A stretch of 64,000 nucleotides of DNA from Bacteroidota bacterium (GTDB taxonomy: Bacteria; Bacteroidota; Ignavibacteria; Ignavibacteriales; Ignavibacteriaceae): the NCBI GenBank assembly GCA_022564295.1, contig JADFLR010000019.1, positions 1-64,000 of the forward strand, read 5' to 3'. This document shows positions 10,433 to 38,359 of this stretch, piece after piece. The notes under the pieces are model-generated. The model saw only the letters and a list, made by a program, of their open reading frames with translations. It ran no database searches and had not been told where the DNA came from. How positions within the stretch are numbered: the stretch's first letter is position 1; every line of letters begins with the position of its first letter. The translations under genes were made by a program, and so were the position numbers.

Positions 10433-10601
10433 CAGGGAATTATCTCCTTAATAATAATTTTTGATAAGATTAATTTGCGGTTTAAATTAAACTGTGTCAA
10501 GAGCCCACGAGAGCTCAAACAGATTTATGAACGGGTGATAAGCTTGCAGTCCATTATATTAAATACCACTGTGCAAGTTACAACAATTGAACTTTATATT
10601 C

Positions 10602-10913
10602 ATAACTTCCTCGAAACTACAACTACGGTTTTCATATTCTCTACAACATCGCCTCCTTCATTTATTGCTTCCAGAAAAATAATATAAATTCTTATACGCA
10701 GTGCTTCGCCGCCATCACCCAAGCCATCAAAAATTACAGAGTCTGATGAACCGCTTGTCTGTCTGTTTGCTAACGTCTCAATACACGCAGTGTGTTTTAA
10801 TTGTAAGTTAACAAGTAAAGTATGTTATTACAAATATGGTCAAACACCTTTACCATTACCCAATATTATTCAACTTCCCATCCCAGCATAAAACATAGAG
10901 CAGGGGTTTTTAT
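10602..10913 (-). repeat. FlgD-tail/flank repeat, copy A (rearranged)
   Basis: Positions 10602-10774 are a diverged, frame-broken copy of the FlgD-Ig C-terminal coding tail (compare 26609-26783). Positions 10771-10913 are a copy of the downstream flank, starting CTAACGTCTCAATACACGC and containing AAGTATGTTATTACAAATAT. Unlike other copies, the tail here abuts the flank of a second unit directly at the core CTAACG, with no gene between, as expected if two units were joined at the core. The gap 10433-11397 otherwise holds only the hairpin repeats listed next and no supportable gene. Confidence 0.75.
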
Positions 10914-14077: not shown

Positions 14078-14252
14078 TAACTTCCTTCGCAACCACAACA
14101 ACGGTTTTCATATTCTCTACAACACCGCTTCCTTCGTTAATTGCTACGAGAAAAATAATATAAATTCCAATACGCAGCGCTTCGTGGTAATCATCTCTTC
14201 CATCAAAAATAACTGAGCCGGAAGAGCTGCTTGGTTGATTGTTTGCCAACGG
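14078..14252 (-). repeat. FlgD-tail repeat, copy T (tail only)
   Basis: Minus-strand reading gives SGSVIFDGRDDYHEALRIG and GVVENMKTVVVVAK, the same ~55-codon tail found at 26609-26783, but one base is added near the end so the natural stop is lost. The ~130-bp flank seen in other copies is absent. Its upper end stops at GCCAACG, which is also the first core of the attC-like site 14245-14297. Confidence 0.8.
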
Positions 14253-14297
14253 TCTTAATAAAATAAGTGATGATTCATTTTATCTTTTGTTAGTGGC
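14245..14297. other. attC-like palindrome, between repeat copy T and an NTF2-like gene
   Basis: GCCAACG (14245-14251) faces TTGTTAGTGGC at the other end; an inner 7-bp stem is ATAAAAT (14258-14264) with ATTTTAT (14277-14283). Core pair AAC/GTT plus inner stem with unpaired bases on one arm resembles integron attC architecture. It lies directly 3' of the minus-strand gene 14300-14785, where a cassette attC is expected. Confidence 0.45.
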
Positions 14298-14299
14298 TT

Positions 14300-14785
14300 T
14301 TACTTTTCGGATACTGTGTTTAAAGTTGCTGATTGGCCACTTAATAATTTCCATCCACCTTCCCGTTTTATGATTGTTCCCGATTCTATTATTGATATTG
14401 TTGATTTAACTCCGGCAGTATCAATCATGAAGCCACCCACTATTCCAGAGTAATTTGCAATCTCGTTTGATAATGGAAATATTTGCAAAGTATCCCAATG
14501 AAATTCAATTGATCGAAAAGCTTTAGCATTCGTTTCCAAAATACTTTTAACGGAATCGTACGATAAAGCTGTGTTATATCCTGGTGGAACCCAGAAAAAA
14601 TCAGGCGACGGATCCAAATATTTAAATTCGGCAGTTAATCCCTTCTTACTAATATCTTTATGGTAATCATGTAGCATTTGGTAAACATCATCAACCACGG
14701 CTACTTTATCAAAATCATTTGATTTTTTAATTCCATCGCACGAAACCAAAGTTAGTATTATTGTTATGTAACCTATATGCTTCAT
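14300..14785 (-). CDS. NTF2/SnoaL-like lipoprotein
   Basis: 161 residues with an N-terminal signal ending in LVSC (Cys16), so probably a lipoprotein. The body has the layout of a DUF4440/SnoaL cone-shaped fold: an N-terminal helix with a DYHKDISKKG segment, a mid-region YDSVKSILETNAKAFRS, then strands ending KREGGWKLLSGQSAT, the typical GGWKL ending of NTF2-like domains. These proteins bind small hydrophobic molecules or act as isomerases; no catalytic residue can be assigned. Its ATG overlaps the stop of the preceding small membrane gene (ATGA), so it is translationally coupled to it. Confidence 0.7.
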   Translation of the reverse strand: MKHIGYITIILTLVSCDGIKKSNDFDKVAVVDDVYQMLHDYHKDISKKGLTAEFKYLDPSPDFFWVPPGYNTALSYDSVKSILETNAKAFRSIEFHWDTLQIFPLSNEIANYSGIVGGFMIDTAGVKSTISIIESGTIIKREGGWKLLSGQSATLNTVSEK

Positions 14786-15099
14786 TTCTGATTTTTTGTT
14801 GAGTGGCGTTTTTCTTTATTTATCAATTTAAGGTATTCGTCATACTGTTCAGCAGTTAATCCGTTAATTCCTTTTTTAGGGAACCAATATAAATGTAATA
14901 TACCCATTCCTGTTGCCATAACACTAAAAGCAATGTAAATCCATAACCGACCAATCAATCCAATGAAGTATAAAACGGCAACAATCAGTAATAGTTTCAC
15001 TAACCGTTTCTACCAAGGAACGTGCTTTTCAAAATTATTGAAGACTATGTTCCCGATTTCCCAACCTATAACTATAATTATAAAATCAACCCATTTCAT
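14782..15099 (-). pseudogene. Small two-helix membrane protein gene interrupted by in-frame TAG
   Basis: ATG at 15099 opens MKWVDFIIIVIGWEIGN, then VFNNFEKHVPW followed by TAG (15010-15012). The same frame continues KRLVKLLLIVAVLYFIG to 14782, ending LNGEQY-like cytoplasmic residues (LTAEQYDEYLKLINK). The pieces read as one 105-residue protein with two or three hydrophobic helices, matching my memory of a Bacteroidota small-membrane family in which the interrupted position is aromatic (HVPW followed by W or Y and basic residues). A TGG-to-TAG change would explain it. A GTG at 15000 could restart the second half. It is coupled by ATGA overlap to the NTF2-like gene. Confidence 0.68.
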
Positions 15100-15137
15100 T
15101 AATGGTTAATTTTTTCTTTTGTTTAGAAAAGCCACCT

Positions 15138-15211
15138 CAACGTCTCAATAAACCTGCCTCTACCTGTCGGCAGACAGTTTAATAGCGTTTATTTTTTGTT
15201 GTGCGTAGTTG
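15138..15211. other. attC-like palindrome 3' of the TPR gene
   Basis: Nested inverted pairs: CAAC (15138-15141) with GTTG (15208-15211); AATAAAC (15147-15153) with GTTTATT (15187-15193); CTGCC (15154-15158) with GGCAG (15169-15173). The right arm carries extra unpaired bases (TTTTGTTGTGCGTA), as in attC sites. The left part CAACGTCTCAATAAAC is the same sequence that begins the repeat flanks at 10772 and 26478. It lies just downstream of the minus-strand TPR gene. Confidence 0.5.
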
Positions 15212-15243: not shown

Positions 15244-17550
15244 CTATTTAAATGGTAAATGAGAAATAAGAATATCGGGATGATAATCTTCCTTGTCAAG
15301 GCTGTAATTAAATGCAGCTGCCCATTCATCTGGTCTTTCTACTTTGGGTCCCAAAGTAATTTGCTGAATTAAAGGTTTAATCGAAATTAATTCTATATAA
15401 ACTCTTGGAGGATGAAAACTTGAATCAATATTTTTTTCGAAGCCAATACCTTTTACCACAAGTCTTACCTCATGTTCATGCTGGTACGCATCGCTTTTAA
15501 ATAAATAGGCTATTTCATTTAATAATTCCACAACGTTTTGAGTATCGGAAATATCCATTCTTTCTTTTGAGTTAAATGTAGTAACTGCTGCAGACAGATC
15601 TTTCATGTATTTATTTAAATCTTTTTGCTTCTTAGTAGCACCAGGAATAATAAACAGATCTTCTTCACCTTCTTTTCTGTAAGCCACCCTGTAGAATCTA
15701 AATTCCTCATCGGCTTTTGATGTAGTTCCCGTTTTCAATTCAGGTGTTATTTTAGTTATTAAATTTTCCAGTAATTTTTCTGTATCAATCGTTATTGAGC
15801 AGCCTTTGGCTTCCTCCATTTTTTCTTTACCATACATACGCCATAGGGTTAAATCATCGTGTTTAAATTCAGCAACAAAACTTCCTATAAATGGTTTCTG
15901 TGTAAATGGCGTTGCAACTGTATCATTCCAATTTTGAGAGGAAAAATCAAAGGATAAAAATTTGAAAAGCTCCCTGCCTTCCGAAGTATCATTGAGATAA
16001 GCACCCTCCGACAACCTGAACAAACTGCTATCTATATCTATAACCAAAGCTTTAGCAACAGATAAACCGGTGTAATGGGTGATGCGACCTTCTTTATAAA
16101 GGAGGAGCTCTTTTATTTTATTAACTATCTCACTAATACTGCTATACTCTTTATTTTCTAATAATTTCCTTAATTCAATAATTCTTGATTCAGCAATTGA
16201 AGTGAAATAATCCGGGTTGTGTTTGGTAAGCTCAACATACTTCTCATAGTCAGCCAGTGATTTTTTGTATTCTTTAAGATCATAGTAGGCATTTCCTAAG
16301 TTATAATAAGGGGATTTATATTTCGGATCTGCTTCTATCGCTTTGTTGTATAATTCTATGGATTTTTTGAATTCTTTAAGATCATAGTAGGTTAATCCTA
16401 AGTTACTATAAGGGAGTGCATGATTTGGATCGACTTTTATCGCTTTATTGTAAAACTCTATGGCTTTGTCGTATTCTTTAAGATAATAGTAGGCTAATCC
16501 TAAGTTATTATAAGGGAGTGTATATTTCGGATCGGTTTCTATCGCTTTGTGGTAAAATTCTTTGGCTTTGTCGTATTCTTTAAGATCATAGTAGGTTAAT
16601 CCTAAGTTATAATAGGCGGATGCATATTTCGGATCGGCTTCTATCGCTTTGTTGTAAAATTCTTTGGCTTTTTTGTATTCTTTAAGATCATGGTAGGTTA
16701 ATCCTAAGTTATTATAAGGGAGTGCATATTTCGGATCGGCTTCTATCGCTTTATTAAAAAACTCTATGGCTTTGTCGTATTCTTTAAGATAATAGTAGGC
16801 TAATCCCAAGTTATTATAAGGGAGTGTATATTTTGGATCGGCTTCTATCGCTTTGTGGTAAAATTCTTTGGCTTTGTCGTATTCTTTAAGATCATAGTAG
16901 GTTAATCCTAAGTTATAATAGGCGGATGCATATTTAGGATCAGCTTCTATTGCTTTGTTATAAAACTTTATGGCTTTGTCGTATTCTTTAAGATAATAGT
17001 AGGTTAATCCTAAGTTATAATAAGGGAGTGTATATTTCGGATCGACTTCTATCGCTTTATTGTAAAACTCTATGGCTTTGTTGTATTCTTTAAGATCATA
17101 GTAGGTTAATCCTAAGTTATAATAAGCGGGTGCATGATTCGGATCGGCTTCATTTGCTTTGTTATAAAACTCTATTGCATTGTCGTATTCTTTAAGATAA
17201 TAGTAGGCTGATCCTAAGTTATTATAAGGAAGTGTATATTTCGGATCGGCTTTTATCGCTTTGTTGTAAAACTCTTTGGCTTTCTCGTATTCTTTATTAT
17301 CAAAGTAATAATTACCCTTATAGTTATTCCCTTTTGAATGTTTAGGATTAATGGATAGAGCTTTCTCTGCGGCCTCATTACTGAGATCATCTTTCTTTAA
17401 TTCATAAAATGCCTGCGCCTTTTCTGCATATAGATCTGCACTATTTAGAGTTTTTAGTATAGTGTCAGTAAGTAATTCAATTACTTCATTATACTCTTTA
17501 TCCTTGTTTAAAGACTGCGCTTTATTTAAAAGTTCTTTTAAGCTGGCCAT
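15244..17550 (-). CDS. TPR-repeat protein with C-terminal DUF2971 domain
   Basis: 768 residues. About residues 1-73 hold two diverged TPRs, 74-447 eleven 34-residue TPRs of the form YYNLGLTYYDLKEYDKAKEF-YNKAIEADPKY, and the C-terminal ~290 residues match the DUF2971 layout (ITHYTGLSVAKAL, LNDTSEGRELFKFL, LTLWRMYGKEKMEEAKGCSI, YQHEHEVRLVVKG). DUF2971 proteins have been linked to phage-defence contexts but their activity is not established. No signal peptide, so cytoplasmic; the TPR superhelix should bind a partner. Start ATG at 17550 lies only 12 bases from repeat copy B, so its promoter must lie in or beyond the repeat. An attC-like palindrome follows the stop. Confidence 0.85.
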   Translation of the reverse strand: MASLKELLNKAQSLNKDKEYNEVIELLTDTILKTLNSADLYAEKAQAFYELKKDDLSNEAAEKALSINPKHSKGNNYKGNYYFDNKEYEKAKEFYNKAIKADPKYTLPYNNLGSAYYYLKEYDNAIEFYNKANEADPNHAPAYYNLGLTYYDLKEYNKAIEFYNKAIEVDPKYTLPYYNLGLTYYYLKEYDKAIKFYNKAIEADPKYASAYYNLGLTYYDLKEYDKAKEFYHKAIEADPKYTLPYNNLGLAYYYLKEYDKAIEFFNKAIEADPKYALPYNNLGLTYHDLKEYKKAKEFYNKAIEADPKYASAYYNLGLTYYDLKEYDKAKEFYHKAIETDPKYTLPYNNLGLAYYYLKEYDKAIEFYNKAIKVDPNHALPYSNLGLTYYDLKEFKKSIELYNKAIEADPKYKSPYYNLGNAYYDLKEYKKSLADYEKYVELTKHNPDYFTSIAESRIIELRKLLENKEYSSISEIVNKIKELLLYKEGRITHYTGLSVAKALVIDIDSSLFRLSEGAYLNDTSEGRELFKFLSFDFSSQNWNDTVATPFTQKPFIGSFVAEFKHDDLTLWRMYGKEKMEEAKGCSITIDTEKLLENLITKITPELKTGTTSKADEEFRFYRVAYRKEGEEDLFIIPGATKKQKDLNKYMKDLSAAVTTFNSKERMDISDTQNVVELLNEIAYLFKSDAYQHEHEVRLVVKGIGFEKNIDSSFHPPRVYIELISIKPLIQQITLGPKVERPDEWAAAFNYSLDKEDYHPDILISHLPFK
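16210..17330 (-). repeat. Tandem 102-bp TPR-coding repeats with higher-order duplication
   Basis: Eleven consecutive 102-bp units encode near-identical 34-residue TPRs. Counting from the N-terminus, units 5-6-7 and 8-9-10 are close copies of each other (for example ASAYYNLGLTYYDLKEYDKA occurs in both unit 5 and unit 8), giving a 306-bp higher-order period. The DNA itself repeats almost word for word (TAATCCTAAGTTAT at each unit), so expansion was recent and copy number may vary between strains or be mis-assembled. Confidence 0.85.
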
Positions 17551-17561
17551 TGTATTCTTTT

Positions 17562-17863
17562 GCTCAATAAATGCAAAGCGTTTTAACCGTAAATTAATTA
17601 GTAAAGTATGTTATTACAAATATATGTTTTCTCATTTTAAGTTATAATTTGTAAACCTTGCTTAATAATAAAGACAGGGGTTAAACAATTATAACTTTCT
17701 CGCAACCACAACAACAGTTTTTATATTCTCTACAACGCCGCTTCCTTCGTTTATTGCTTCGAGAAAGATAATATAAATTCCTATACGCAGTGCTTCGCCG
17801 GAATCATCTCTTCCATCGAAAATAACTGAGTGGGACGAGCCGCTTGCCGGCTGTTTGTCTACG
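17562..17863 (-). repeat. FlgD-tail/flank repeat, copy B (full length)
   Basis: Plus-strand order: flank from CTCAATAAATGCAAAGCG (17563) through AAGTATGTTATTACAAATAT and CTTGCTTAATAATAAAGACAGGGG, then tail to CTGTTTGTCTACG (17863). On the minus strand the tail still encodes SVIFDGRDDSGEALRIGIYI and GVVENIKTVVVVARKL followed by a stop. It fills the 17551-17932 gap together with ~70 bases containing TATTGTGTGTAGGTA, a weak counterpart of the right arm of attC-like sites. Confidence 0.85.
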
Positions 17864-17932
17864 TTAAGTATTACAAGCGTAGAATCCCATAGAGTGCTAT
17901 GATTTCATATACATTATTGTGTGTAGGTATTT

Positions 17933-18610
17933 TTATTTGTACGCTTCATTCGCTTTTTTATGTAGTTTTAGAAGTCCTGGAATTCCTTTAATCAAATCCC
18001 AAATGGCTATAAATCCACCTTGAGAAAGAGCCTTCAACATAATAAAAGGATTTGGTTTTGCCGGTTCAAAATGCTCTTCCGTGATAATTCGATTCTTATT
18101 TAAAGTGGATAACACTTCTGAAACTTTTGCTGGATTATTCCAATCCCCTCTAAAGACTACTGTCCCTTCGGTATTGATTATATATAACATATCGGGCAAA
18201 CCGCCATATTGTAAATGGAAATCACCATTTAAGTTGTCAATTAGGATAACTCTATTTTCACCATATAATTTCTTTGTCTTGGTGGCTAAATTTATTTTTT
18301 GTTTTAAAGTTCGATGCTCTGTTGTTCTTTCACCGGGATGTGCTTCACGGACATAAATCAATAAGAAACCGACATTTGGAAACTTGTCCTTTAAGTTCTC
18401 CATTTTGGGGATACACTTTGCATACATTGGGCAAGTAATACTTCCTGTTTCGAGTACGATCGGTTTATCCAAAAAACCTGAAAGCATAACCTGTTTCCCA
18501 TTTATGTCATATAAGTGCAAGTCGATAAGCTTTTCCCCCGCTTTTGGACCTGGGAAATTTGCCAAATCATAGAATTTCGTCTTAAAATTTTTATAATTAT
18601 AATCTGTCAT
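17933..18610 (-). CDS. Deiodinase-like thioredoxin-fold protein (Cys in place of Sec)
   Basis: 225 residues with no signal peptide. Residues 20-170 follow the iodothyronine-deiodinase/redoxin fold: AGEKLIDLHLYDINGKQVML, then PIVLETGSITCPMYAKC with Cys60 at the position where animal deiodinases carry selenocysteine, then FLLIYVREAHPGE, the deiodinase-type (Y)REAHP motif that separates this family from ordinary AhpC/TSA proteins, then GGLPDMLYIINTEGTVVFRG as the thioredoxin cis-Pro segment. Cys66 could be a resolving cysteine. Bacterial members have unknown substrates; a thiol peroxidase or reductase activity is plausible. A hydrophobic C-terminal helix (FIAIWDLIKGIPGLL) may attach it to a membrane or partner. 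It is flanked by repeats B and C. Confidence 0.8.
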   Translation of the reverse strand: MTDYNYKNFKTKFYDLANFPGPKAGEKLIDLHLYDINGKQVMLSGFLDKPIVLETGSITCPMYAKCIPKMENLKDKFPNVGFLLIYVREAHPGERTTEHRTLKQKINLATKTKKLYGENRVILIDNLNGDFHLQYGGLPDMLYIINTEGTVVFRGDWNNPAKVSEVLSTLNKNRIITEEHFEPAKPNPFIMLKALSQGGFIAIWDLIKGIPGLLKLHKKANEAYK

Positions 18611-18635
18611 TTCTATTATTTATTGCTTACACACA

Positions 18636-18893
18636 ACTTCTTAATAAACCTGTATGTTGACAGGCAGGCGATGCGTTGTAACTGCAAATTAACAAGTAAA
18701 GTATGTTATTACAAATATAGTCAAACACCTTTGCCGTTTTCTCTTTTTAAGTTGTACTTCTTACAATAATCTCGTGAAATAGAAGGAAGCTTCTAATCTT
18801 TTCCTACAAGGACACCTGCTATAAAACCATTTCCTAATATTATTCAACTTCCCAACCAATGCTTAATAACTTAGGTAGGGGTTTTTATATTCG
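18636..18893 (-). repeat. FlgD-flank repeat, copy C (flank only, interrupted)
   Basis: Contains GCGTTGTAACTGCAAATTAACAAG and AAGTATGTTATTACAAATATAG as in other flanks, then TATTCAACTTCCCAACC and GCTTAATAACTTAGGTAGGGG. A ~100-bp stretch between these halves (18745-18835) is not in copies B, F or G but its end matches copy A (AATATTATTCAACTTCCCA). The left end is altered by a CCTGTATGTTGACAGGCAGG hairpin. No coding tail follows: the gene next door (19099) is on the plus strand. The remainder of the gap to 19098 is featureless A+T-rich DNA. Confidence 0.7.
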
Positions 18894-20171: not shown

Positions 20172-20383
20172 AACCACTACTTAATAACATAGGCAAGGGT
20201 TAAACAATTATAATTTCCTCGAAACAACAACAACAGTTTTCATATTTTCTACAACGCCGCTTCCCTTGTTAATTGATTCTAAAAAGATAATATAAATTCC
20301 TATACGAAGCGCTTCGCCTGAATCATCTCTTCCATCGAAAATAACAGAACCGGAAGAACCGCTTGCCCGACTGTTTGCCAACG
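20172..20383 (-). repeat. FlgD-tail/flank repeat, copy D
   Basis: The inner part of the flank (ACTTAATAACATAGGCAAGGG, then TTAAACAATTATAATTTCC) is followed by an open tail encoding SGSSGSVIFDGRDDSGEALR and GVVENMKTVVVVSRKL with stop. The outer flank is missing or unrecognisable, replaced by the end of the phosphatase gene. The tail ends at TTTGCCAACG, where the attC-like palindrome 20377-20442 begins. Confidence 0.8.
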
Positions 20384-20442
20384 TTGGGCTAAATAACGTT
20401 GCTGTCCTGCAGGGCAGATATGATTTTTTAGCCATTGTTAGC
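20377..20442. other. attC-like palindrome 3' of the RloC-like gene
   Basis: Best of the sites. Left arm GCCAACGTTGGGCTAAA (20377-20393) and right arm TTTAGCCATTGTTAGC (20427-20442) are imperfect reverse complements with a 7-bp perfect inner part (GGCTAAA/TTTAGCC) and AAC/GTT cores. Between them CTGTCCTGCAGGGCAG (20402-20417) makes its own hairpin. Size (66 bp), core pair and mismatched arms fit an integron attC, and it lies 14 bases after the stop of the minus-strand gene 20456-22861. Confidence 0.55.
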
Positions 20443-20455
20443 GGTTTGTGCTTTT

Positions 20456-22861
20456 TTATAATTCATTGTCAATTAGGTTTAAAGTATCTGTTACAAAGTT
20501 TGAAAGCTCAGTTCTATTCATTGTATTTGGATTTGCTCCTAATATCGTATAGTCAGGAATTGGTTCTCCGTGGTGCGGTCTGCAAGAAATTCCATTTATT
20601 AGATTTAGCATAGAAATGATTGTTGTTCTATTTGCGTTGTTTCTAAATACAACCCCTTGATTGATCAAAGCAGTTATTAATCTTCCCAGCGTTTGATCAT
20701 TTGGAGGTAATGCACTTATTTGTCTGTAGAACTTAAACCGAATATGTGCTTCGAGAACATTACGCAACCAACCCAATACAATCTCCTTCTTACTAAGGTC
20801 AGGATGTCGTAAGAAATTTTCTAATTCTTTAATATGCCTGAAATAATCATTCTCAACTAAGGTCTCCAAAACCAAAGGTTCAATTACGGATGCTCTAGCT
20901 GTAAAGTCTTCAGTTATTCGTAAAGTTTTTTTGTCACCAGGTGCAAAACCTTTTGATAGTTCGTGAAGGAAAAACTCATTATGGCTAAGAACAATTACTT
21001 GTTTGATATTCGGAAATAAATCTTTAATGAGTTGCACTGTATACATCCTTCTGTTACTGTCAAAACTTGATAGAGGGTCATCAAAAACTAAAACCTTGTT
21101 ATTTACATTTGGGTCAATGTCCAATTTAGAAAGAAAAAATGCCAAAGCTATTGTGCTTCTATCTCCTTCGCTTAAACAATCCTTTACACTGTTTGGCTGA
21201 CTAGGTTCAAAGGAAATGTCTTGTCCCTCAATGGTTAGTTTGTATCCTATTTTACTTTGTGTCGCCATTCCACGAGGAGGAACATGCACTACATCATCAA
21301 TTCTGAAAGGTGTCTTAAATACAGTTCCTAAGTAATGATTGATACGAGTTTTATAACTATTAAAAAAGGTTGTCACTGCGGTTTGTTGTTGCTGAACTAA
21401 CAGGGGATATGCCGTTTCTAATGTTCTAAGATTTTGTCTTTCTGTTGTTAACTGATTGCAGAGTACCACAATGGGTGTCTCAAATCGCTTCTTAATTCTT
21501 TTCAATCTGTCAACTTCAAGCTGTGCATTGACTACGGTTCGAATACTGGCACGAAAAGTAGTGATGGCATTATTGTAGGTATTAATGCTTTGGTTATAGC
21601 TGTCAATATTTGTATTAATTGTTTGTAAAGAAGATTGAAAATCCGTGGCTGTGGCGGTAGCCACTACCGCAGAAGGATTTTGAAGTTTTTGTTGAACTGT
21701 TGCAACGAGTGCTTGAAACTCTGCTCTTAAATTTGCTTCATCAGCTATAATACTGAAAGTTGGAGATTGAACCGTGTTTGGTAGGTGTGCAGTCCATGAA
21801 GCAATGCGTCCTGTGTTTATTTGATTGACATTGTTAAATGCCTGTATAGCCGTTTCTAGGTTGAAAGCTTGAAATGTAGTCAAATGGGCTTGTATTCGCT
21901 GAATTAACGAATTGAAAGCTGCATTGAATTGAAATGCATAAGCGTTAATAATTTCAATAGTGTTGTCAATTGTTTGCTTACAAAATGGACAAGAAAGAGT
22001 AATTGGATTGTTGTCATTAGCAGTCGCTTGTTTACTCTCTATGTATGCAAAACCTTTTTGTAGCCAATTTTCAGGTCCATCAATCGAATTGTCAGCCAAA
22101 TCTTGACAATGATTTGAAAATAAAGTTTGCAATGCTGTATTTTGAATAGCCTGTGAAGTTGTTTGCAAATCGGTTATTAGAGAATTAAAGTCAATACCCG
22201 AATTTATTCGAACAAGTTGGGAGAGAGGTTGTAGCGTTTGAATTACAGAATTTGCATTAGCGCTTACTAAAGCCGCTTCTGCCGTTGCAATCAGTTGGTC
22301 AATATTATTTGCTTGTGGAATTGCAAGGAACGATGTAATTAAATCAGGAGTTAAGTTATTCCCGACTTGTTGTATTAATTGTTGTCCAATATTTGTCTGT
22401 AATTGTCTTGATGTTGTTTTATCGGTTTTGTTTCGTTCAATTTGTTGTTGAATTGCTATCCCTTGTGCACCTATTACAAATTGATGAAGATGTTTTTTAT
22501 GTTCTTCATTAAAGTCAAAACCTGAGTAAATATTTTCGTCTACAAAGTGAATGTCAAAAATTTCAATATCGGGAAAAGGAGCTGTCCAACCTGTTGTCGG
22601 ATTAAATGTATGATGTGTGTCTCCTGAAATGTTTCTCTGAACAATTTGTGCTGCTTGTTGTGTGGTTTGATTTATAGATTTTCTTCTTTTAACAAGGCAG
22701 GGTTTGTTTTGAGTTAAAGAGCGAAGTAAAGATGTCAAGGTTGTTTTACCACTACCGTTGTCACCGTAAATAAGTGTTAATTTCTTGAAAGCTACATCAC
22801 CAGTAGCCAGATAGTTTTTAAACTTTCCAATAGATATAAGTCGTTCAATTTTATGTATCAT
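20456..22861 (-). CDS. AAA_13 ATPase, RloC/PrrC-like, with zinc-hook motif
   Basis: 801 residues. Walker A GDNGSGKT (residues 33-40), family stretch IEIFDIHFVDENIYSGFDF, two long Gln/Asn-rich coiled-coil regions separated by LSCPFCKQTID (Cys291, Cys294), signature LSEGDRSTIALAFFL, Walker B VLVFDDPLSSFDSNRR and VIVLSHNEFFLHEL. Length and a CxxC at the coiled-coil turn recall RloC, a Rad50-like anticodon nuclease. The C-terminus has WLRNVLEAHIRFKF (Arg700, Glu704) and CRPHHGEP (His763/764), an R-x3-E...H pattern like the PrrC triad, but similar residues occur in AAA_13 proteins with no proven nuclease. Probable abortive-infection effector; the nuclease call is tentative. Flanked by repeat E upstream and an attC-like site downstream. 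Confidence 0.8.
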   Translation of the reverse strand: MIHKIERLISIGKFKNYLATGDVAFKKLTLIYGDNGSGKTTLTSLLRSLTQNKPCLVKRRKSINQTTQQAAQIVQRNISGDTHHTFNPTTGWTAPFPDIEIFDIHFVDENIYSGFDFNEEHKKHLHQFVIGAQGIAIQQQIERNKTDKTTSRQLQTNIGQQLIQQVGNNLTPDLITSFLAIPQANNIDQLIATAEAALVSANANSVIQTLQPLSQLVRINSGIDFNSLITDLQTTSQAIQNTALQTLFSNHCQDLADNSIDGPENWLQKGFAYIESKQATANDNNPITLSCPFCKQTIDNTIEIINAYAFQFNAAFNSLIQRIQAHLTTFQAFNLETAIQAFNNVNQINTGRIASWTAHLPNTVQSPTFSIIADEANLRAEFQALVATVQQKLQNPSAVVATATATDFQSSLQTINTNIDSYNQSINTYNNAITTFRASIRTVVNAQLEVDRLKRIKKRFETPIVVLCNQLTTERQNLRTLETAYPLLVQQQQTAVTTFFNSYKTRINHYLGTVFKTPFRIDDVVHVPPRGMATQSKIGYKLTIEGQDISFEPSQPNSVKDCLSEGDRSTIALAFFLSKLDIDPNVNNKVLVFDDPLSSFDSNRRMYTVQLIKDLFPNIKQVIVLSHNEFFLHELSKGFAPGDKKTLRITEDFTARASVIEPLVLETLVENDYFRHIKELENFLRHPDLSKKEIVLGWLRNVLEAHIRFKFYRQISALPPNDQTLGRLITALINQGVVFRNNANRTTIISMLNLINGISCRPHHGEPIPDYTILGANPNTMNRTELSNFVTDTLNLIDNEL

Positions 22862-22894
22862 TTTTCAACTTGTGATGTAGTTTCAGCATGACCA

Positions 22895-23043
22895 CTAACG
22901 TCCCGATATACGTAATGCGGTTTAACTGCAAAATTACCAACTATTATTCAGGTTACAAACACCAGTAAAATAAAATAGGCAGGGATTTAATGATTATAAT
23001 TTTCTCGCAACAAAACTATGGTTTTCATATTCTCTACAACACC
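22895..23043 (-). repeat. FlgD-tail/flank repeat, copy E (truncated by the sulfatase gene)
   Basis: Starts at CTAACGTCCCGATATACG (22895), keeps GCGGTTTAACTGCAAAATTACC, then GGCAGGGATTTAATGATTATAA and the last codons of the tail (TCTCGCAACAAAACTATGG...TTCTCTACAACACC). The repeat stops abruptly at about 23043 where the sulfatase 3' end begins, so most of the coding tail is missing. Confidence 0.75.
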
Positions 23044-23054
23044 TTGATGAAGCC

Positions 23055-24626
23055 TCATCTGTCATAATCCGGTACTGCCTTGCTCCAGCCATCAGCAAGT
23101 TGTTCTGACAACTTTCTAACCACCGCACCATATTCCTCCATTTCCGCAACATTTATCTTCTCGTATGGATCGTTTAAACGATCGTACATTTCCGCCTTCA
23201 CATATTCACCCCTCTTTCCAGTGGTATTATCCCAGGTGTACCACTCAATGTAATGATGCTCCTTAGTATTGATGGAATAACCCATGTATCGCCCGCCATC
23301 TGCTGCAACCTTTGGCCTTCGGTGAAATTGACTAAACGCTGCTTTTTTCCAGGGAAGTTCCGGATCGCTTAGTAGTGGAACGAAACTGGTACCCTGTAAA
23401 TAATCCGGGACTTCTATTCCGGCCAGTTCACACAGCGACGGAAATATATCTACCAGTTCGGTAATGGCATACGTTTCAATGTTTCTTAATTTTTGGCCTG
23501 GATATCGAATGATCATGGGCACTTGCAAGTCGATGTTATAATTTGTCATTTTCCCCCAGCTATTATGGTCACCTAATTTCCAGCCATGGTCACCCCAGAT
23601 AATGATGATTGTATTTTCATAAATCCCCAACTCTTTCAAATGGTTCACCAGATCTCCAACTAATGCATCTATGTAACTCACGCTTGCATAATAACCATGT
23701 TTCAATATGCGTGCGGTATCCTCGCTCATGCGGTACGACGAGGTGGGATGGCCGATATGTTCAAATCCGTCATAATGTCTTAGTTCATACATGGAGTTCA
23801 TTGTCCATATCGGGGCACCTTTTGGGATATCGGGATTGGGTGCTAAAGGAATCGCATCAGGGTCATACATGTCCCAATATTTTTTTGGGACAGCAAATGG
23901 AAGGTGGGGTCGAAAATATCCGAGCCCGAGGTAGAAGGGCTTGTCCATTTCAGCAAGACGGGTAAGTGTTTGTTTGGCGAGTTCCGTCTGGGCACCATCG
24001 TAGTAAAGCGTGTCATGGACGTCTGCATCCTCCCATGCCGGACCTGTATTCCATCCGTCTGCATATCTAATCGGTTGTAACTTCAACAATGAATCTCTTT
24101 TGATTTCCTGCGACTTATTCACTTCCTCGCTGATATAAAAAGTCTCACCATCCCTCCCGAGCCATTCGGATCGGACATAACGAGATGGACGCAAGTCCGG
24201 TTCATCCCATGATATGGAATCCGGCATGTAGTTATGGAATATCTTACCGATGTTAACCGTGTAGTAGCCGTACCGGGAAAAATATTGTGGCATGGTGACC
24301 GTTTCCGGGTTGATCTCACGGAATTTGTCCCCAAGGTGCCAAACTCGTGTATAATCAGGTCTCAAGCCTGTCATCAGACTTGCCCGGGAAGGTGCACATA
24401 CCGCAGATTGGCAAAATGTTTGTCTGAATGTCATGCCCTCCTCAGACAAACGATCCAGGTTTGGGGTGATAGCCACCGTATCATCATATGCTCCCAATGT
24501 TGGGCGAAGGTCATCAATGGAGACAAACAGAATGTTTGGTCTATCCGTAACAGTAGGATCGCCGCAACTAAAAGTAGCAATAATAAATAGGCAGACAAGC
24601 GACAAAAAATGGAGATACTTTTTCAT
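23055..24626 (-). CDS. Exported sulfatase, iduronate-2-sulfatase-like
   Basis: About 523 residues from ATG 24626 (an in-frame start 8 codons earlier gives a poorer signal sequence). The N-terminal hydrophobic segment ends FSCGD, so it is probably a lipoprotein. Alkaline-phosphatase-fold sulfatase motifs: NILFVSIDDLRPTLGAYDD with metal-binding Asp pair, CAPSRASLMTGL (CxPSR, whose Cys must be converted to formylglycine), LGYFRPHLPF, IIIWGDHGWKLGDH and ELVDIFPSLCELAGI. Iduronate sulfatases cut 2-O-sulfate from sulfated polysaccharides. No formylglycine-generating enzyme or anaerobic maturase is in the window. Base composition is near 50% G+C where I counted, against about a third in neighbouring genes, and its 3' end cuts into repeat E: a clear transfer signature. 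Confidence 0.92.
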   Translation of the reverse strand: MKKYLHFLSLVCLFIIATFSCGDPTVTDRPNILFVSIDDLRPTLGAYDDTVAITPNLDRLSEEGMTFRQTFCQSAVCAPSRASLMTGLRPDYTRVWHLGDKFREINPETVTMPQYFSRYGYYTVNIGKIFHNYMPDSISWDEPDLRPSRYVRSEWLGRDGETFYISEEVNKSQEIKRDSLLKLQPIRYADGWNTGPAWEDADVHDTLYYDGAQTELAKQTLTRLAEMDKPFYLGLGYFRPHLPFAVPKKYWDMYDPDAIPLAPNPDIPKGAPIWTMNSMYELRHYDGFEHIGHPTSSYRMSEDTARILKHGYYASVSYIDALVGDLVNHLKELGIYENTIIIIWGDHGWKLGDHNSWGKMTNYNIDLQVPMIIRYPGQKLRNIETYAITELVDIFPSLCELAGIEVPDYLQGTSFVPLLSDPELPWKKAAFSQFHRRPKVAADGGRYMGYSINTKEHHYIEWYTWDNTTGKRGEYVKAEMYDRLNDPYEKINVAEMEEYGAVVRKLSEQLADGWSKAVPDYDR

Positions 24627-24681
24627 TAGTGTAATAAGATGAACAGTCATTAATTAAAATCCATTGATGTAAGTAATTACC

Positions 24682-24740
24682 GCTAACGGTCTGGCTAAAC
24701 TGCGTTTTAATGCAGTTTAGGTTTTGTTGTAGCCAGTTCG
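24682..24740. other. attC-like palindrome between two minus-strand genes
   Basis: GCTAACGGTCTGGCTA at left; TAGCCAGTTCG at right; arms CTGGCTA (24691-24697) and TAGCCAG (24730-24736) pair, and alternatively CTAAACTGC (24695-24703) pairs perfectly with GCAGTTTAG (24712-24720) around an 8-base loop. The minus-strand reading places it immediately 3' of the small membrane gene 24801-25061 and 5' of the sulfatase. The TTTTGTTG stretch before the right arm recurs at 15193 and 25423. Confidence 0.5.
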
Positions 24741-24800
24741 TCTTCCGTTCAATTACTTCTTTATCTTTTACAGTTGGATTTCTAAAGCAATGGAAACATA

Positions 24801-25061
24801 CTAGCTCAATTCCAACATCCAACAATCTTTAAGTTCTACCCTGTTCATTTTTTTTGATTTTCTATTTGCAGACCGAATGAGTAAGAATCCTATTAAAGCA
24901 ATACTTAAATTTACTAGTATCCACAAAAGACGACCATATTCAGAATTGATTTTTCCAAACCAATAATCAAGTTCAACATTATCAGGCCAAAAATAACTAG
25001 CAACCCCGCCAATTAAGAGCGCTAACCCGATAGCAAATAAAATTTGTCCTAATATTTTCAT
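24801..25061 (-). CDS. Small membrane protein, two helices
   Basis: 86 residues, hydrophobic segments at about 5-24 and 44-63 (LGQILFAIGLALLIGGVASY and LLWILVNLSIALIGFLLI), a charged linker between, and a basic tail RSANRKSKKMNR. No known family is recognised. It lies between repeat F and an attC-like site with no neighbour in the same operon, exactly the layout of a single-gene cassette, so function cannot be inferred from context. Ends on TAG. Confidence 0.6.
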   Translation of the reverse strand: MKILGQILFAIGLALLIGGVASYFWPDNVELDYWFGKINSEYGRLLWILVNLSIALIGFLLIRSANRKSKKMNRVELKDCWMLELS

Positions 25062-25087
25062 AGTTTATTTGTTTTTAATTGGCTATA

Positions 25088-25391
25088 AAGTCTCAATACA
25101 CGCATTGCGTTTTAACTGCAAATTAAACAGTAAAGTATGTTATTACAAATATATGTTTATTCATTTTAAGTAATAATTCATAATCCTTGCTTAATATTAT
25201 AACAGGGTTAAACAATTATAATTTCCTTGCAACCACCACAACTGTCTTCATATTCTCTACAACACCGCTGCCTTCGTTTATTGCTTCGAGAAAAATAATA
25301 TAAATTCCTATACGAAGTGCTTCGCCTGAATCATCTCTTCCATCAAAAATAACTGAGCCCGTAGAACCGCTTGGCTGATTGTTTATTAACG
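25088..25391 (-). repeat. FlgD-tail/flank repeat, copy F (full length)
   Basis: Plus-strand order: AGTCTCAATACACGCATTGCG (25089), TTTAACTGCAAATTAAACAG, AAGTATGTTATTACAAATAT, CTTGCTTAATATTATAACAGGG, then an intact tail encoding GSVIFDGRDDSGEALRIGIY and GVVENMKTVVVVARKL with stop, ending GTTTATTAACG. The length is almost identical to copies B and G. It fills most of the 25062-25448 gap. Confidence 0.88.
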
Positions 25392-25441
25392 TATCTGTTA
25401 TGGCGCGTTTTAATGTGTTTTAATTTTTGTTGGGGTAAGTT
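25386..25441. other. Weak attC-like segment 3' of the PD-(D/E)XK-like gene
   Basis: ATTAACG at left and GGTAAGTTA at right carry AAC/GTT cores; between them GCGCGTTTTAATG and TTTTAATTTTTGTTGGGG are similar to the interior of the site at 24682-24740 (GCGTTTTAATG and GGTTTTGTTG). Self-pairing is poor, so the call rests on similarity and position. Confidence 0.3.
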
Positions 25442-25448
25442 ATTCTTT

Positions 25449-26444
25449 TTATTCATTTATGAACATATATTTGTTAAGGTCTACCGTGTAGTCACCGGCA
25501 TATAATTCCCATGTAGGGTTATTTCTTATGTGGATATGATAGTGTCTTATAGTGTCGTCTATGTTCATTGACACTCCTGAATGTTCAATGTACTCTGTCA
25601 ATGTATCGTAGGGTAATTTGATTACGCCTTCAGACCCAACCGTAAAGCATAGATGTGTTATCTCTTGTTGCTGATACTTGTCAAGGGACTTTGGTGTAAT
25701 GCCATACCAATAATTGGGTTCTGCGTCATAATACTTGGAGTACTTTATTGATATTTTGTCTCCATTGTCAAGTTCGTAGAACTTTATTTTGTAGACGTTG
25801 GTTGTAAACTTGCCCCCACCGAGAAGTTCAAGTGCTTCAATTGGTTTTCCTTGTGAATCTTTTACATCTTCAATTGTAGTTTCTATAGTTGAATCTTGTC
25901 CCTCTGGATAGTAAAACTCAATATTACCGTTGATGGAGAATTTTTCAATTTTATAAACTCTAATTGTTGCATTAAGGGCTTCAACCATATCCTCCAAGTC
26001 CTCATTTATTTCATCAATAAAAATTGCAATGTCAGGTGTTGTTGTTTCTAAAATGTTCTCAATTTTTTGAACAATTCTTGTCTCAGAAATTTCAAGTGTC
26101 TTAGCTGCCTTTGATAATAGATTTTTATTCTCTAAAGCATCGAAGAAATAATCCCTGATTTTTCTCTTTGTTGAATCATTTTTGGTGGCAACAATAAAAC
26201 GAATTATTTGTTCCGCAATGTGATCCCAAACTCCATGTTCAATTAACTCTGTTTCGATAATCGTCCAAGAAGAATTATGAAGGTCTAAAACAAAACCATC
26301 TGGTTTGGCTCCTTTTTCTCTTTTGGTTTTTATTATAAAATTCCCAGGTAGATAAATGACGTCTCCAAAGAAGTCACTAATTTTTTCTTCTACCCAGGAA
26401 TGAAGTTCATTTTCGTTAACAAATTTTGTTCTTTGAATAGACAT
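25449..26444 (-). CDS. Unknown protein with possible PD-(D/E)XK-like N-terminal domain
   Basis: 331 cytoplasmic residues. The N-terminal ~110 residues read LHSWVEEKISDFFG, KPDGFVLDLHNSSWTIIETE and LIEHGVWDHIAEQIIRFIVA; the Asp...Glu-x-Glu spacing after a hydrophobic strand and the following helix with GQ-like AEQ resemble restriction-type nuclease folds that recognise their own substrate through a C-terminal domain. The C-terminal ~130 residues (YWYGITPKSLDKYQQQEITH, GVIKLPYDTLTEYIEHSG) form a separate, unknown domain. I do not recognise the family. Single gene between repeats F and G, so it may be an orphan nuclease or a defence cassette. Confidence 0.65.
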   Translation of the reverse strand: MSIQRTKFVNENELHSWVEEKISDFFGDVIYLPGNFIIKTKREKGAKPDGFVLDLHNSSWTIIETELIEHGVWDHIAEQIIRFIVATKNDSTKRKIRDYFFDALENKNLLSKAAKTLEISETRIVQKIENILETTTPDIAIFIDEINEDLEDMVEALNATIRVYKIEKFSINGNIEFYYPEGQDSTIETTIEDVKDSQGKPIEALELLGGGKFTTNVYKIKFYELDNGDKISIKYSKYYDAEPNYWYGITPKSLDKYQQQEITHLCFTVGSEGVIKLPYDTLTEYIEHSGVSMNIDDTIRHYHIHIRNNPTWELYAGDYTVDLNKYMFINE

Positions 26445-26475
26445 TTTTTATTTATTTTTTTGCTAAATATTTTAC

Positions 26476-26783
26476 CTAACGTCTCAATAAACGCATTGCG
26501 TGGTAACTGCAAATTAACCAGTTAAGTATGTTAGTACAAATAAATGTTTTCTTATTTTAAGTTATAATTCATAAACCTTGCTTAATAACAAAAGCAGGGG
26601 TTAAACATTTACAACTTCCTCGCAACAACTACCACAGTCTTCATGTTCTCAACAACTCCAGCGCCTTCGTTTATTGCTTCGAGAAAGATAATATAAATTC
26701 CGATGCGAAGTGCTTCGCCCGAATCATCTCTTCCATCAAAAATAACTGAGCCGGAAGAACCGCTTGGCTGATTGTTTAACAAT
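26476..26783 (-). repeat. FlgD-tail/flank repeat, copy G (apparent source)
   Basis: Flank starts ACCTAACGTCTCAATAAACG (26476), a fit to the RYYYAAC core (reverse complement CGTTAGGT fits GTTRRRY), runs through TAACTGCAAATTAACC, and CTTGCTTAATAACAAAAGCAGGGG, and joins the true 3' end of the lamin-tail-domain gene (tail 26609-26783). At the point where all other tails stop, this copy has GTTTAAC (26774-26780), also a fit to the RYYYAAC core, and then continues into the rest of the gene instead of an attC-like site. Confidence 0.85.
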
Positions 26784-29053
26784 GTTCTTACTAATCTTCC
26801 TTTGCTGTCGAAGATTTTTATTCTTACTTCGGAAGTGGCTTGAGTTAAATTATAATTAATAATTGTAAAATCCTCAAACCCGTCGTTATCAGGAGAAAAC
26901 GGATTTGGTGATACGGATAAATTAGATTCGGCATTTAAGTTATCTGTAAAAATACTGTTCTGCACCGTTGGTGTACCGCCAAGTGGGTTTGTGGAACTGC
27001 TCCAATTACTTTCATCATTCGAGTTAAGTTTAGGATTGATCCTTTCAAGCGAAATATTTTTTGTTGATGCGAAATTATCGTTGTGCCATTTATCCGAGTA
27101 CCAAACAGAATCGATTACATTTCCCTTTACATCTTTAAGTAAAATTAATTCTCCGCTGTTCACTAACCCAAGACTTGAGACATCTAAAATTGAGATAAGT
27201 GCTGATTCATCCAAAGAATATTTTTCAATTACAAGCGAATCAGCCGCAAGAACAAAATATGAGTTTGGAGGAATATGAAATGATGTTTGTGCAAGCTTGG
27301 AGATATTATCCTTTTCATCTTCAATCCGCCAACCTCCGATGTTTACCGGTTCATCACTTAAATTAAGAAACTCAACAAACTCACTGTTATCTTCACCGGG
27401 TTCAAACATTATTTCATTTATAACCATGGAGTTTCTTTCATACGAGGGAGCATTTTCAATTGAGTTTGGCGCCCCGGGTGTGCTTCGGTTTATGCTTAAT
27501 GATGATGTCCAGTTTGTTTCATCGTTGGTTTCTTCATCAACGGAAATCCTTTCTAATGAAAAACCGTTTTTACCTCCCCACGATGAATTGTAAAGAAGAC
27601 TATCAATTATTCCTTCTCTAAAGTCATAAATTATTATTCCGTCTTTAGTATTACCTAACGAACCGAAATTTGCGAACCTGATTTCCGATGTAACTTCGGG
27701 ATGATGACTGTTGAATGATGTATCTTTTGCAATAATGATAAACTCATCCGGTGGAAGAAAAAGGTCGACGGACGTAATAAGGTTAATTGTCGGAGATGAA
27801 AGTATATCGCTGATAGCCCAATTTTTTAAGTTTAAAGTTTCACCGGAAATATTAATCAGTTCAACCCATTCCGGTTCATTATCAATCGGAGAATACATTA
27901 CTTCATTAATTACAATTACTTTTTCGGGGAAGCCGGGCTGAACGGATTTTTCAAAATAATTGTTAAGCGTGTCTTCATCTTCAAGGTAAAAAATTCTCAC
28001 GGCTGTAAGCACTTTGGAGGTTATATTTTCAATCGCAAAGGTTGATGTGATATTTGCAGAATCTCCCGAAGCTAATCCCAAACCGGTTTCAATACTTAAT
28101 AAATAATCGACCACATTATTTGAATCAGTATCTATAAAAAATTCTACATTAAAATTGTTTGCATCGGATGAACCGTTATTCCTTATCACTGCAGAAACAA
28201 AAACATCATCACCTGAAACAGGAAAACGCGGATTAAAATTTAATGCTGCTACAGATAGATCAAACTGTTTAGGCGTTACACTATTTATCCTGCCGGGAGT
28301 GCTTTGCTCAATATCGAGTGAAGTACCCCAATTCAGTGGCTGATTTGAATTAACTTTTACATCTTTTCTTTCAAGCGAGTAACCGTTTGTTCCGCCCCAA
28401 TCGCTCCGGTATTTAACTGAGTCTATCACCGCACCACGATCATCACGCAGAATAATTCCGTCGACATCGTTGTTCAATACCGGCAAATTAATTTCAAAAA
28501 CAAAAGAAGGAATGAAACGATGAAAATCTAATATAGAAAAATCTTTAGTGAGGATAATATATGATTCGGGAGGAATCACAATACCAGCATCAAAAAATAT
28601 CTGAGCAGGAGTTGTTAGAATATCCGAAATGCTCCATCCCTCAAGAAAAATTGTTTCGTTTGTGTTGTTGAAGAGTTCAATCCATTCCGGCTCACCTCCT
28701 GCCGGTGTGTACATAATTTCATTAACAACAATCGATTGAGGTGGGAATCCCGGAGCTATAGTTTTATACAAATAATTATTGGTAGTATCCTCATCATCAC
28801 CGAATTGTGCGAGAACAGTGAAACCATGTTTGTCCAAAATATTTTCTATTTGATGATTGAATTGATAAAAATTTGAATCACCGGGCGAATGAATAAATAT
28901 ACTGCTAGTTTCAATTAAGAGATCAGGAATTGAATCGAGGTTTGTATCTTCAAAAAGTTGTAAAGTAAACGAAGCCAGGTTAAGTCCGTGATTTAGAATT
29001 TTCGCCGAGATGCTGATGATATCATTATCAAGAGGAAATGTAGCTTTACTTTG
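26609..29053 (-). pseudogene. 5'-truncated secreted protein with lamin-tail domains and FlgD-Ig C-terminus
   Basis: The reading frame is open from about 29053 to 26609 but has no plausible start or signal peptide; a TTG at 28837 is inside a CARDB-like domain that clearly extends upstream (ISAKILNHGLNLASFTLQLF). Domain order: partial CARDB, lamin-tail (VVNEIMYTPAGGEPEWIELF), CARDB (SDANNFNVEFFIDTDSN), lamin-tail (VINEVMYSPIDNEPEWVELI), lamin-tail (MVINEIMFEPGEDNSEFVEF), then a FlgD-Ig-type domain (VSPNPFSPDNDGFEDF... ending VVVVARKL) that would act as a type IX or adhesion C-terminus. The junction at ~29053 with unrelated A+T-rich DNA marks the truncation. Its last 55 codons are the source of the dispersed repeats. 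Confidence 0.8.
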
Positions 29054-33278: not shown

Positions 33279-33329
33279 ATCAAAAATCTATTCTTAGGTA
33301 ACTTACTTGAATATTGATTTACATATTTA

Positions 33330-35873: not shown

Positions 35874-35954
35874 CAGTTGATAATTTATTAAGCAGGGGTT
35901 GTTATTAACATTAACAATACAACAATAATAAAAAAATATTTAATAGCAAACCTT

Positions 35955-37424
35955 TTACTTCATCAACACCATCTTCTTAGTCTCAACAAAAGAGCCTGCT
36001 TGTAGTTTATAGAAATAAATACCACTTGGTAATGTTGTTGCATTAAACTCAACCTCATAATTCCCTGCAGATTTTTCTTCGTTAACAAGTGTTGCAACTT
36101 CATTTCCTAATACATCATAAACTTTAAGTGTGACAAGACTTAATTTGGGGATTTGATAGTTAATCTTTGTTGAAGGATTAAAAGGATTGGGGAAGTTCTG
36201 GCTTAGTTCAAATTCCAAAGGTGCATCAACATCAATTTCAATTATTTTTGAATATTCAAATGTGCCGTTGTAATCTATTTGTTTCAATCTGTAAGAGTAT
36301 TTGCCTATCTGCTGAATATTGGAATCAATAAATTTATCTTCGGATGTTATTGTTACAGTAGATGTTAAATCGGAAATTGTCCACTCCTTAAGATTTAGTT
36401 GAGAGGAGGTTCTGTTGAACAGTTCAACCCATTCCGGCTCACCCGAAGAAGGAGCGTAAATCAATTCATTTAAAACAACATCATTAAAATTATTTCCCGG
36501 CGGGGAAACGGTAAATGCATCTATCAACTCATTATTTAAAAGATTTTCATCTTCACTAAATATAACCTTCGAAATTATTTGGTAATCACCTGCGGTAAGT
36601 GAAGACATAATTGTACTAACGGTTATTGAATCCCCTGAAGCAAGGTCAGAAAAGTTTTGTGAGAAAATTAACTCTCCCGGATCCGCAGTGGAATCAAAAT
36701 TTGCATCGTTATAAATTTCTATAGAGTAACTTGCTGCAGTATCGGTTCCTTTATTTTTCACTTTTGTAAAAATAGTAACATCGTCTCCCTCGGTTGGAAA
36801 AGCTGGAATAAATGATAACGAGCTCATTTCTAAATCGAAATTTAAGGGTGTTACGGAATTTTGAAATCCTGGTGTTCCGTTTGAGTTAAGTGTATTCTCC
36901 CAATTCGATTGAGAATTATTTCCGGTCATTTCAATCTTTTCATCAGAAAAAGATGCGCTGTTATCTGCTGAATAAGTATATGCCTGAAGTGTATCATCTG
37001 CTGGAGAAAGAAGCCACACAGGTCGGTCGGATGTGTTTGCCATTCCTGTTGAACCGAATGAATTATCTGAAATTTTTAAAACCAGGGCTTCAGGTGGGAT
37101 CATTTCATCATAAATTCCCAATCCAAAAGGATAATCACCTTCAAATATTACGGCAAAACTTTTTGGCGGTAAAACAGTTCCTTCTCCAGTTTCAATAATA
37201 ATATCAGGAGATGAAGTCGAGTATTTTATTTTATAACCGTTTAGGTCGATGCTTTCAGTTTCACTAAAATTATAAAGCTCAACAAATTCATTTGGACCGG
37301 AAGTTGGGAAGAACATTATTTCACTTAGTATAAGTGTTGAATCATTTTGTGCGAGAGTAAATGAAGTGGCAATTAGAGCCGCGAGCAAAGTTATTTTAGT
37401 TATACGATTAATATTATACCCCAA
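35955..37424 (-). CDS. Secreted lamin-tail-domain protein with type IX sorting domain (chimeric)
   Basis: 489 residues: signal peptide (1-25, FTLAQ), lamin-tail domain (LILSEIMFFPTSGPNEFVEL), CARDB-like domain (FPTEGDDVTIFTKVKNKG), a second lamin-tail domain (VVLNELIYAPSSGEPEWVEL) that breaks off after WTISDLTSTVTI, then FIDSNIQQIGKYSYRLKQID, a fibronectin-like ending usually found next to the sorting domain, and the sorting domain [19 protein letters not shown] ending KKMVLMK. The second lamin-tail domain is thus only half present. Its half resembles the domains of the truncated gene at 26609-29053, so the two genes may be parts of an old recombination (inference). Surface structural role likely. 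Confidence 0.82.
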   Translation of the reverse strand: MGYNINRITKITLLAALIATSFTLAQNDSTLILSEIMFFPTSGPNEFVELYNFSETESIDLNGYKIKYSTSSPDIIIETGEGTVLPPKSFAVIFEGDYPFGLGIYDEMIPPEALVLKISDNSFGSTGMANTSDRPVWLLSPADDTLQAYTYSADNSASFSDEKIEMTGNNSQSNWENTLNSNGTPGFQNSVTPLNFDLEMSSLSFIPAFPTEGDDVTIFTKVKNKGTDTAASYSIEIYNDANFDSTADPGELIFSQNFSDLASGDSITVSTIMSSLTAGDYQIISKVIFSEDENLLNNELIDAFTVSPPGNNFNDVVLNELIYAPSSGEPEWVELFNRTSSQLNLKEWTISDLTSTVTITSEDKFIDSNIQQIGKYSYRLKQIDYNGTFEYSKIIEIDVDAPLEFELSQNFPNPFNPSTKINYQIPKLSLVTLKVYDVLGNEVATLVNEEKSAGNYEVEFNATTLPSGIYFYKLQAGSFVETKKMVLMK

Positions 37425-38218: not shown

Positions 38219-38293
38219 GTTCTGTGATATCTTGCTTGAGTATTTTTATTTAATTAATTTACAGTTAGAACCTAATAATAAATTAAGTTATAA

Positions 38294-38359
38294 ATCCCAA
38301 TAAGCGCAGTGTGTCGTAACTGCAAATCTTCTGTTATTTTTTGTTTCATTTATTGAGAT
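38294..38359. other. attC-like palindrome upstream of the OLD-family gene
   Basis: ATCCCAATAA (38294-38303) and TTATTGAGAT (38350-38359) are inverted copies with one mismatch; the interior GCGCAGTGTGTCGTAACTGCAA matches the beginning of the repeat flanks at 10787 and 26500, and TTATTGAGA is the reverse of their TCTCAATAA start. So an element of the same system marks the start of the next gene, 36 bases away, 11.5 kb from the nearest repeat copy. Confidence 0.45.

Follow-up and report, generated by a model that had tools for sequence, protein, structure and literature searches.

A worn, integrase-less gene cassette array in an Ignavibacteria genome and its probable affiliation to integrons whose integrase lacks the I2 helix

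The window analysed here, the whole 64,000-nucleotide stretch of contig JADFLR010000019.1, harbors an array whose attC sites close at least five minus-strand gene cassettes; these are headed by repeated attI-like sites with the core ...ACGCAATGCGTTTATTGAGACG^TTR (Table 1). Because all the array genes with an attC lie on the minus strand, the attC sites are to be read on that strand. An earlier note had described six inverted-core sequences as attC-like, placed at the 3' ends of genes and next to repeat copies; all are present and were read on both strands, and pairing and folding identified five of them as attC sites, together with one additional site (17862-17926), whereas the sixth (38294-38359) aligned to the attI-like repeat and is not an attC. 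The hairpins are imperfect, with an AAC/GTT core and an inner stem, and the one at 25386 is weak. The array fulfills the CALIN criterion (at least two attC sites, integrase not nearby), a CALIN being a cluster of attC sites without an integrase in the terms of IntegronFinder (PMC9024848). Among the genes carried, the AAA_13 ATPase (20456-22861, minus strand) matched the PADLOC candidate defence family PDC-S06 (1.5e-76), and ten similar 102-bp units at 16159-17376 represent the TPR repeats of the gene at 15244-17550.

Table 1. Features of the cassette array and its surroundings (positions in the window; sites of the earlier note in parentheses).
Feature	Position	Strand	Evidence or remarks
attC, cassette 1, decayed	25390..25437 (25386-25441)	-	R'' TTACCCCAAC; core G at 25390; pairing and folding
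attC, cassette 2	24687..24736 (24682-24740)	-	R'' AACTGGCTACAAC; pairing and folding
attC, AAA_13 cassette	20382..20446 (20377-20442, the site named in the note)	-	Pairing and folding
attC, thioredoxin/deiodinase-like cassette	17862..17926	-	Pairing and folding
attC following TPR gene	15141..15203 (15138-15211)	-	Loop holds CCTGCC-type palindromic insert; folding
attC, 161-aa gene cassette	14250..14299 (14245-14297)	-	Pairing and folding
Cassette 1, 331-aa unknown protein (25449-26444)	25390..26479	-	Pairing
Cassette 2, 86-aa unknown protein (24801-25061)	24687..25089	-	Pairing
Cassette, AAA_13 ATPase (20456-22861)	20382..22898	-	Pairing; PADLOC candidate PDC-S06
Cassette, thioredoxin/deiodinase-like protein (17933-18610)	17862..18636	-	Pairing
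Cassette, 161-aa protein and small ORF upstream	14250..15140	-	Pairing
Sulfatase gene within array	23055..24650	-	Start core at 24687; attC of its own lost
TPR gene within array, then 15141 attC	15244..17550	-	
attI-like site behind intact lamin-tail/FlgD gene	26476..26545	-	Promoter-like TATTTG upstream
attI-like site, core G mutated	25086..25153	-	
attI-like site, divergent	22895..22943	-	
attI-like site with palindromic insert	18635..18719	-	
attI-like site, core lost	17563..17624	-	
attI-like site, truncated FlgD end directly after	10770..10837	-	
Decayed attI-like site	38289..38327 (sixth site, 38294-38359)	-	Alignment to attI-like repeat
Lamin-tail protein with FlgD_ig/CHU_C end (LTD, FlgD_ig, CHU_C)	26609..28837	-	Intact copy of repeated 3' end
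Truncated lamin-tail/FlgD 3' end and attI unit	25086..25390	-	Starts at core G^TT
Truncated FlgD 3' end and decayed attI unit	17563..17862	-	
Truncated FlgD 3' end, attI gone	20180..20382	-	
Truncated FlgD 3' end, attI gone	14079..14250	-	
Truncated FlgD 3' end	10598..10774	-	
FlgD 3'-end remnant preceding 22895 attI	22969..23043	-	

A genuine cassette was once circular, and the 5' arm of its attC (R'') pairs with the first bases of the cassette itself. This pairing was scored with the anchor at AAC/GTT in the five cassettes having both ends (start to arm: 26480 to 25429, 25090 to 24726, 22899 to 20437, 18637 to 17916 and 15141 to 14289), unanchored scoring having been abandoned as too noisy. 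The total of the own pairs was the best of the 120 permutations and was reached by none of 5000 shuffled starts, as exemplified by the pairing of GTTGTGTGTAAG with CCTACACACAAT (18637/17916) and of GTTAGTGGT with ACCGCTAAC (22899/20437). Bottom-strand folding, which had been proposed as a check on the attC claim, was performed on the closed cassettes with DNA parameters and gave z values of -5.7 (24682), -2.9 (17862), -2.7 (20377), -1.6 (14245) and 0.0 (25386), as well as -1.9 for 15138 in its array context and -0.2 for 38294. From the pairing and folding results, the palindromes are the attC sites of a real yet worn cassette array, in which the cassette structure is directly observed.

The previous suggestion that the cores fit CGTTRR better than GTTRRRY was borne out, since all 33 cores of the wider family were GTTR and only three of them met the strict GTTRRRY R' box, from which the window cores deviate too. 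The proposed scoring with a covariance model gave no support, as a model of the 121-bp attC type found no site in the window, whose attC sites measure just 48-65 bp and do not resemble the modelled type; besides, there was no window match in Rfam at the gathering threshold. The top and bottom strands of the window attC sites showed similar folding energies, which leaves the strand choice without support, and strand use is only inferred; as to extrahelical bases that would fix bottom-strand use, spacer asymmetry and a recurrent mismatch were seen in the long-type attC sites. The R'' arm of the attC at 24687..24736 is identical to that of an Algoriphagus cassette (L251).

Beyond what the earlier note had covered, the repeat copies were tied to the attI-like sites, the array was found to be without an integrase, and relatives were found to carry a matching integrase without the IntI-specific domain. 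The repeat of 170-300 bp represents the 3' end of the lamin-tail/FlgD gene whose intact copy lies at 26609-28837; the truncated copies, which sit between cassettes, are 78-87% identical to this gene, and the downstream stretch with the attI-like core is retained in two truncated copies and in the remnant at 22969. Within the source genome the FlgD end occurs only on the contig of the window, and the core-bearing element is also found elsewhere in this genome (C42, C49 and C22) and in congeneric species. Alignment showed that the five clear truncated copies of the window have their first base in common with one G002 copy (ATTGGCAAAC of the gene), right after the core G, at the point of integrase cleavage, and that the sequences upstream of the copies sharing this core^TT breakpoint are mutually unrelated; a copy in G001 starts close to it, and a copy in G004 starts at another GTT of the gene. 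The stretches at 25086-25390 and 17563-17862 are G^TT-bounded units ending in attI, with attI cores that are mutated or lost. Based on the shared breakpoint at the core G, and on sequence alone, the FlgD 3'-end copies may be regarded as cassette-like units ending in attI, whose mobility is an inference. The thioredoxin-like cassette, together with its junction with the truncated FlgD end, is also present in G002:C86, a second species of the same genus. The attI-like repeat itself was rejected both as an attC and as a mobile promoter cassette, since no G^TT core marks its left edge, and a short 15-nt attI pattern was dropped as genome-wide evidence because it was only weakly above the reversed control.

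No integrase gene is encoded in the window, and no IntI above the NCBIfam cut-off was found in the source genome, which holds just an N-terminal fragment of a canonical IntI on C22 (L045, G000:C22:146253-146375). Divergent truncated recombinase 5' ends (MEKQEI...) occur upstream of several attI-like sites of the source genome; given the canonical fragment on C22, this genome once held both integrase types. Starting from the best recombinase fragment (C49:169089), intact homologues were identified in G004 (Bacterium BMS3Abin03, of the same genus as the source), G049 and G009, where the attI core is divergent and about 90-100 bp from the recombinase start codon. In relatives, an intact tyrosine recombinase gene (~280 aa) running divergently is directly observed to have the same attI 88-103 bp upstream. 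The integron platform layout (attI beside the integrase gene, cassettes behind) is likewise present there, and in the source genome it comes with mere fragments of the integrase gene. A Flavobacteriaceae MAG (L174) carries the same attI core as the window, AAACGCAATGCGTTTATTGAGACG^TTG, 89 bp upstream of an intact recombinase, and L191, L176 and G004 have cores close to that of the window as well. The recombinases of G038 and G027 were rejected as integron-linked, being judged IS91-linked from the neighboring transposase-like gene; that of G038 (L163, near 154633) is a related ~290-aa recombinase adjoining an IS91-like transposase, and represents the same fold in another mobile element.

The ~280-aa recombinases lack the whole IntI-specific I2 insert, an absence seen directly in the alignment. 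The KDR-to-HxLRH spacing, determined by motif search (which mis-measured L188), was 61-62 residues in these proteins compared to 103 in all nine IntI examined and 64-69 in Xer. The TIGR02249 model matched them solely as two stretches flanking a gap, and their best full-length model was the XerA-type NF040815, XerA being known as an archaeal Xer recombinase. The RKHRHY catalytic residues are invariant in A2 (R136, K161, H225, R228, H251 and Y260), and the C-terminal end is the IntI-like KIKSPFDNL. An AlphaFold2 model (shallow alignment, pLDDT 81.5) had no helix at residues 185-202, and a Foldseek search with this model ranked XerA above VchIntIA. In the phylogenetic tree, IntI formed a single clade (100/100) adjoined by the I2-less proteins, and a support of 40/48 did not resolve whether the latter are one clade or the stock that gave rise to IntI. 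The criterion of a canonical integron, an intI with the IntI-specific additional domain, is unmet, considering that the insert is absent from the linked recombinases and that the array's own genome has no IntI above the cut-off.

The scan of relatives comprised 80 named loci among at least 510 relatives. An attI, a cassette and an attC were found in 24 of the 118 testable recombinase flanks against 10 of 590 shuffled flanks. The divergent group had its attI core 88-103 bp upstream of the gene, and the core of the Bacteroidota group lay mostly 66-136 bp downstream; the attC length was 118-123 bp in 19 of the 24 positive flanks, and 31 flanks had a contig end no more than 300 bp from the recombinase gene, as repeats would be expected to show. 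I2-less recombinases head cassette arrays with attC sites of ~121 bp in Ignavibacteria, Bacteroidota and a gammaproteobacterial MAG. A covariance model of this long attC, built from 15 flank attC sites, detected ten head-to-tail sites in Paradesertivirga, five long-type sites in the source genome (two beside the C49 integrase fragment) and sites in 29 of 59 related genomes, including all those in which an intact or near-intact I2-less gene had been seen, some of these sites being part of the training set. Both sides of the long-attC hairpin change in 17 of 22 pairs, and the covariation score was 0.455 versus 0.151 for shuffled data (reached by 0 of 500), with slid controls at 0.09-0.23. Moreover, no IntI above the cut-off was observed in 12 Bacteroidota genomes with an I2-less gene (Algoriphagus, Paradesertivirga, Cyclobacterium, Galbibacter, Kaistella, Rhodonellum, Daejeonella, Flavobacterium and Brumimicrobium), and a first cassette was detected in eight of them. 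Both integrase types occur in Marinicella, Stygiobacter, G016, G023 and G049. Extended pairing gapped at position 8 was dropped as a marker of I2-less systems, since it looked similar by eye in canonical arrays of the same lineage, and a strict chain finder was rejected because it missed known arrays. A long-type attC array also lies in a one-contig genome (G030:C1:1083503-1105122), with no IntI or I2-less integrase among the matches listed.

Our main reading, to which we give a probability of roughly three in four, is that the window holds a decayed integrase-less cassette array whose attI-like repeats belong to an integron lineage with a ~280-aa, XerA-like integrase without I2. Such an integrase would bind the folded attC of a cassette and join the cassette at the G^TT core of an attI located ~90 bp away from the divergent integrase gene itself or, in Bacteroidota, just downstream of the gene, and cassettes would insert behind the promoter-like sequence beside the attI; catalysis of capture by the recombinase and promoter function are both inferred. 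The attI would have spread to many places within the source genus, and small attI-ended cassettes, made of the FlgD 3' end, the promoter-like stretch and the attI, may have been generated when attI recombined with a secondary in-gene core at the lamin-tail/FlgD locus, and may then have been re-inserted between other cassettes, a route that remains inferential. The source genome would afterwards have lost the integrase, with fragments remaining. The decayed attC at 25386 and the two array genes that lost an end count against this explanation, as do the short window attC sites that escaped the long-type model, the canonical IntI fragment on C22, the several relatives with both integrase types and the lack of evidence for a bottom-strand preference.

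An ordinary integron remnant, in which a canonical IntI built the array and has since been lost, leaving the I2-less recombinase as an unrelated Xer-like neighbor of attI, seems improbable to us. The IntI fragment on C22 makes past canonical activity in the source genome possible, and canonical IntI exceeded the cut-off in 27 of the 59 genomes searched. However, the canonical attI of relatives, TAATAG^TTAGGC, is unlike that of the window, which resembles the attI of the I2-less recombinases; in different phyla the cassette-flanked core keeps the same 88-103 bp distance to the divergent I2-less gene, and there are array-bearing Bacteroidota without canonical IntI. That the palindromes are merely terminators or REP-like repeats at gene ends, without a role in recombination, is hardly tenable in the face of the start/arm pairing, the common core breakpoints and the identical cassette junction in a relative, even if folding is weak at some sites (25386 and 14245) and CCTGCC-type palindromes lie in the loops. 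As for the FlgD 3'-end copies alone, their origin by ordinary duplication and homologous recombination, with attC-core borders arising by chance, is unlikely yet deserves more weight than the two preceding alternatives: the intact gene stands at one end of the array and the copies have the identity expressed above, and against it, six copies, one of them in G002, share a first base that falls precisely at core^TT, with unrelated sequences preceding them.

Compared with known systems, the integron lineage with the I2-less integrase shares with canonical integrons and CALINs the cassettes with a 3' attC, the G^TT cores, the R''/R' complementarity, the attI and the same-strand gene array, and differs in the linked integrase without the IntI-specific domain, in GTTR rather than GTTRRRY cores and in the long covarying 121-bp attC of relatives. 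XerA recombinases (NF040815, PDB 5hxy/4a8e) are the closest family by sequence and fold and are likewise without I2, but the recombinases described here head cassette arrays and have the IntI-like end. The delta-attI-type cassettes described for IntI1 are also cassette-like units ending in attI instead of attC (PMC12901181), unlike the present units in that these include a chromosomal gene's 3' end and are known as sequence only. ORF-less promoter cassettes (PMC6557892) are similarly cassette-like units perhaps supplying promoters within arrays, although promoter activity of the units reported here is only putative.

It has been stated that I2 is necessary for cassette capture, is found in no other protein and is exclusive to integron integrases (PMC7790495), and published definitions of integrons demand it (PMC7790495, PMC9668308), the IntI-specific additional domain defining canonical intI according to Messier and Roy (2001), as far as that work is cited in these two papers. 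IntegronFinder and the archaeal survey also identify IntI via an IntI-specific profile (PMC9668308). I2-less integron integrases were nowhere described in the literature searched, which left out preprints and most subscription papers. We lean toward the view that widespread active integrons in Ignavibacteria, Bacteroidota and other groups capture cassettes with an integrase without the I2 helix, and that I2 is thus not required for integron recombination; if this class is real, I2 may be younger than integrons themselves, or the integrons of this class may rely on another attC architecture. The lack of intermediates has been considered an obstacle to understanding the origin of integrons (PMC7790495), and this question would become directly testable with I2-less integrases that occur in nature next to covarying attC arrays. 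Such integrases would also expose Bacteroidota integrons that present tools would miss, since tools requiring the IntI-specific profile would score such arrays as integrase-less; a complete Bacteroidota integron was newly reported in Salinibacter ruber (PMC9024848).

Palindromes of the CCTGCC...GGCAGG type are inserted in attC and attI loops of the window (15149-15181 and 18650-18671) and also in the attI copies of C49 and C22. In addition, two similar stretches (33310-33443 and 35935-36068) and lamin-tail repeats further upstream, akin to the region of the gene at 26609, were observed in the window.
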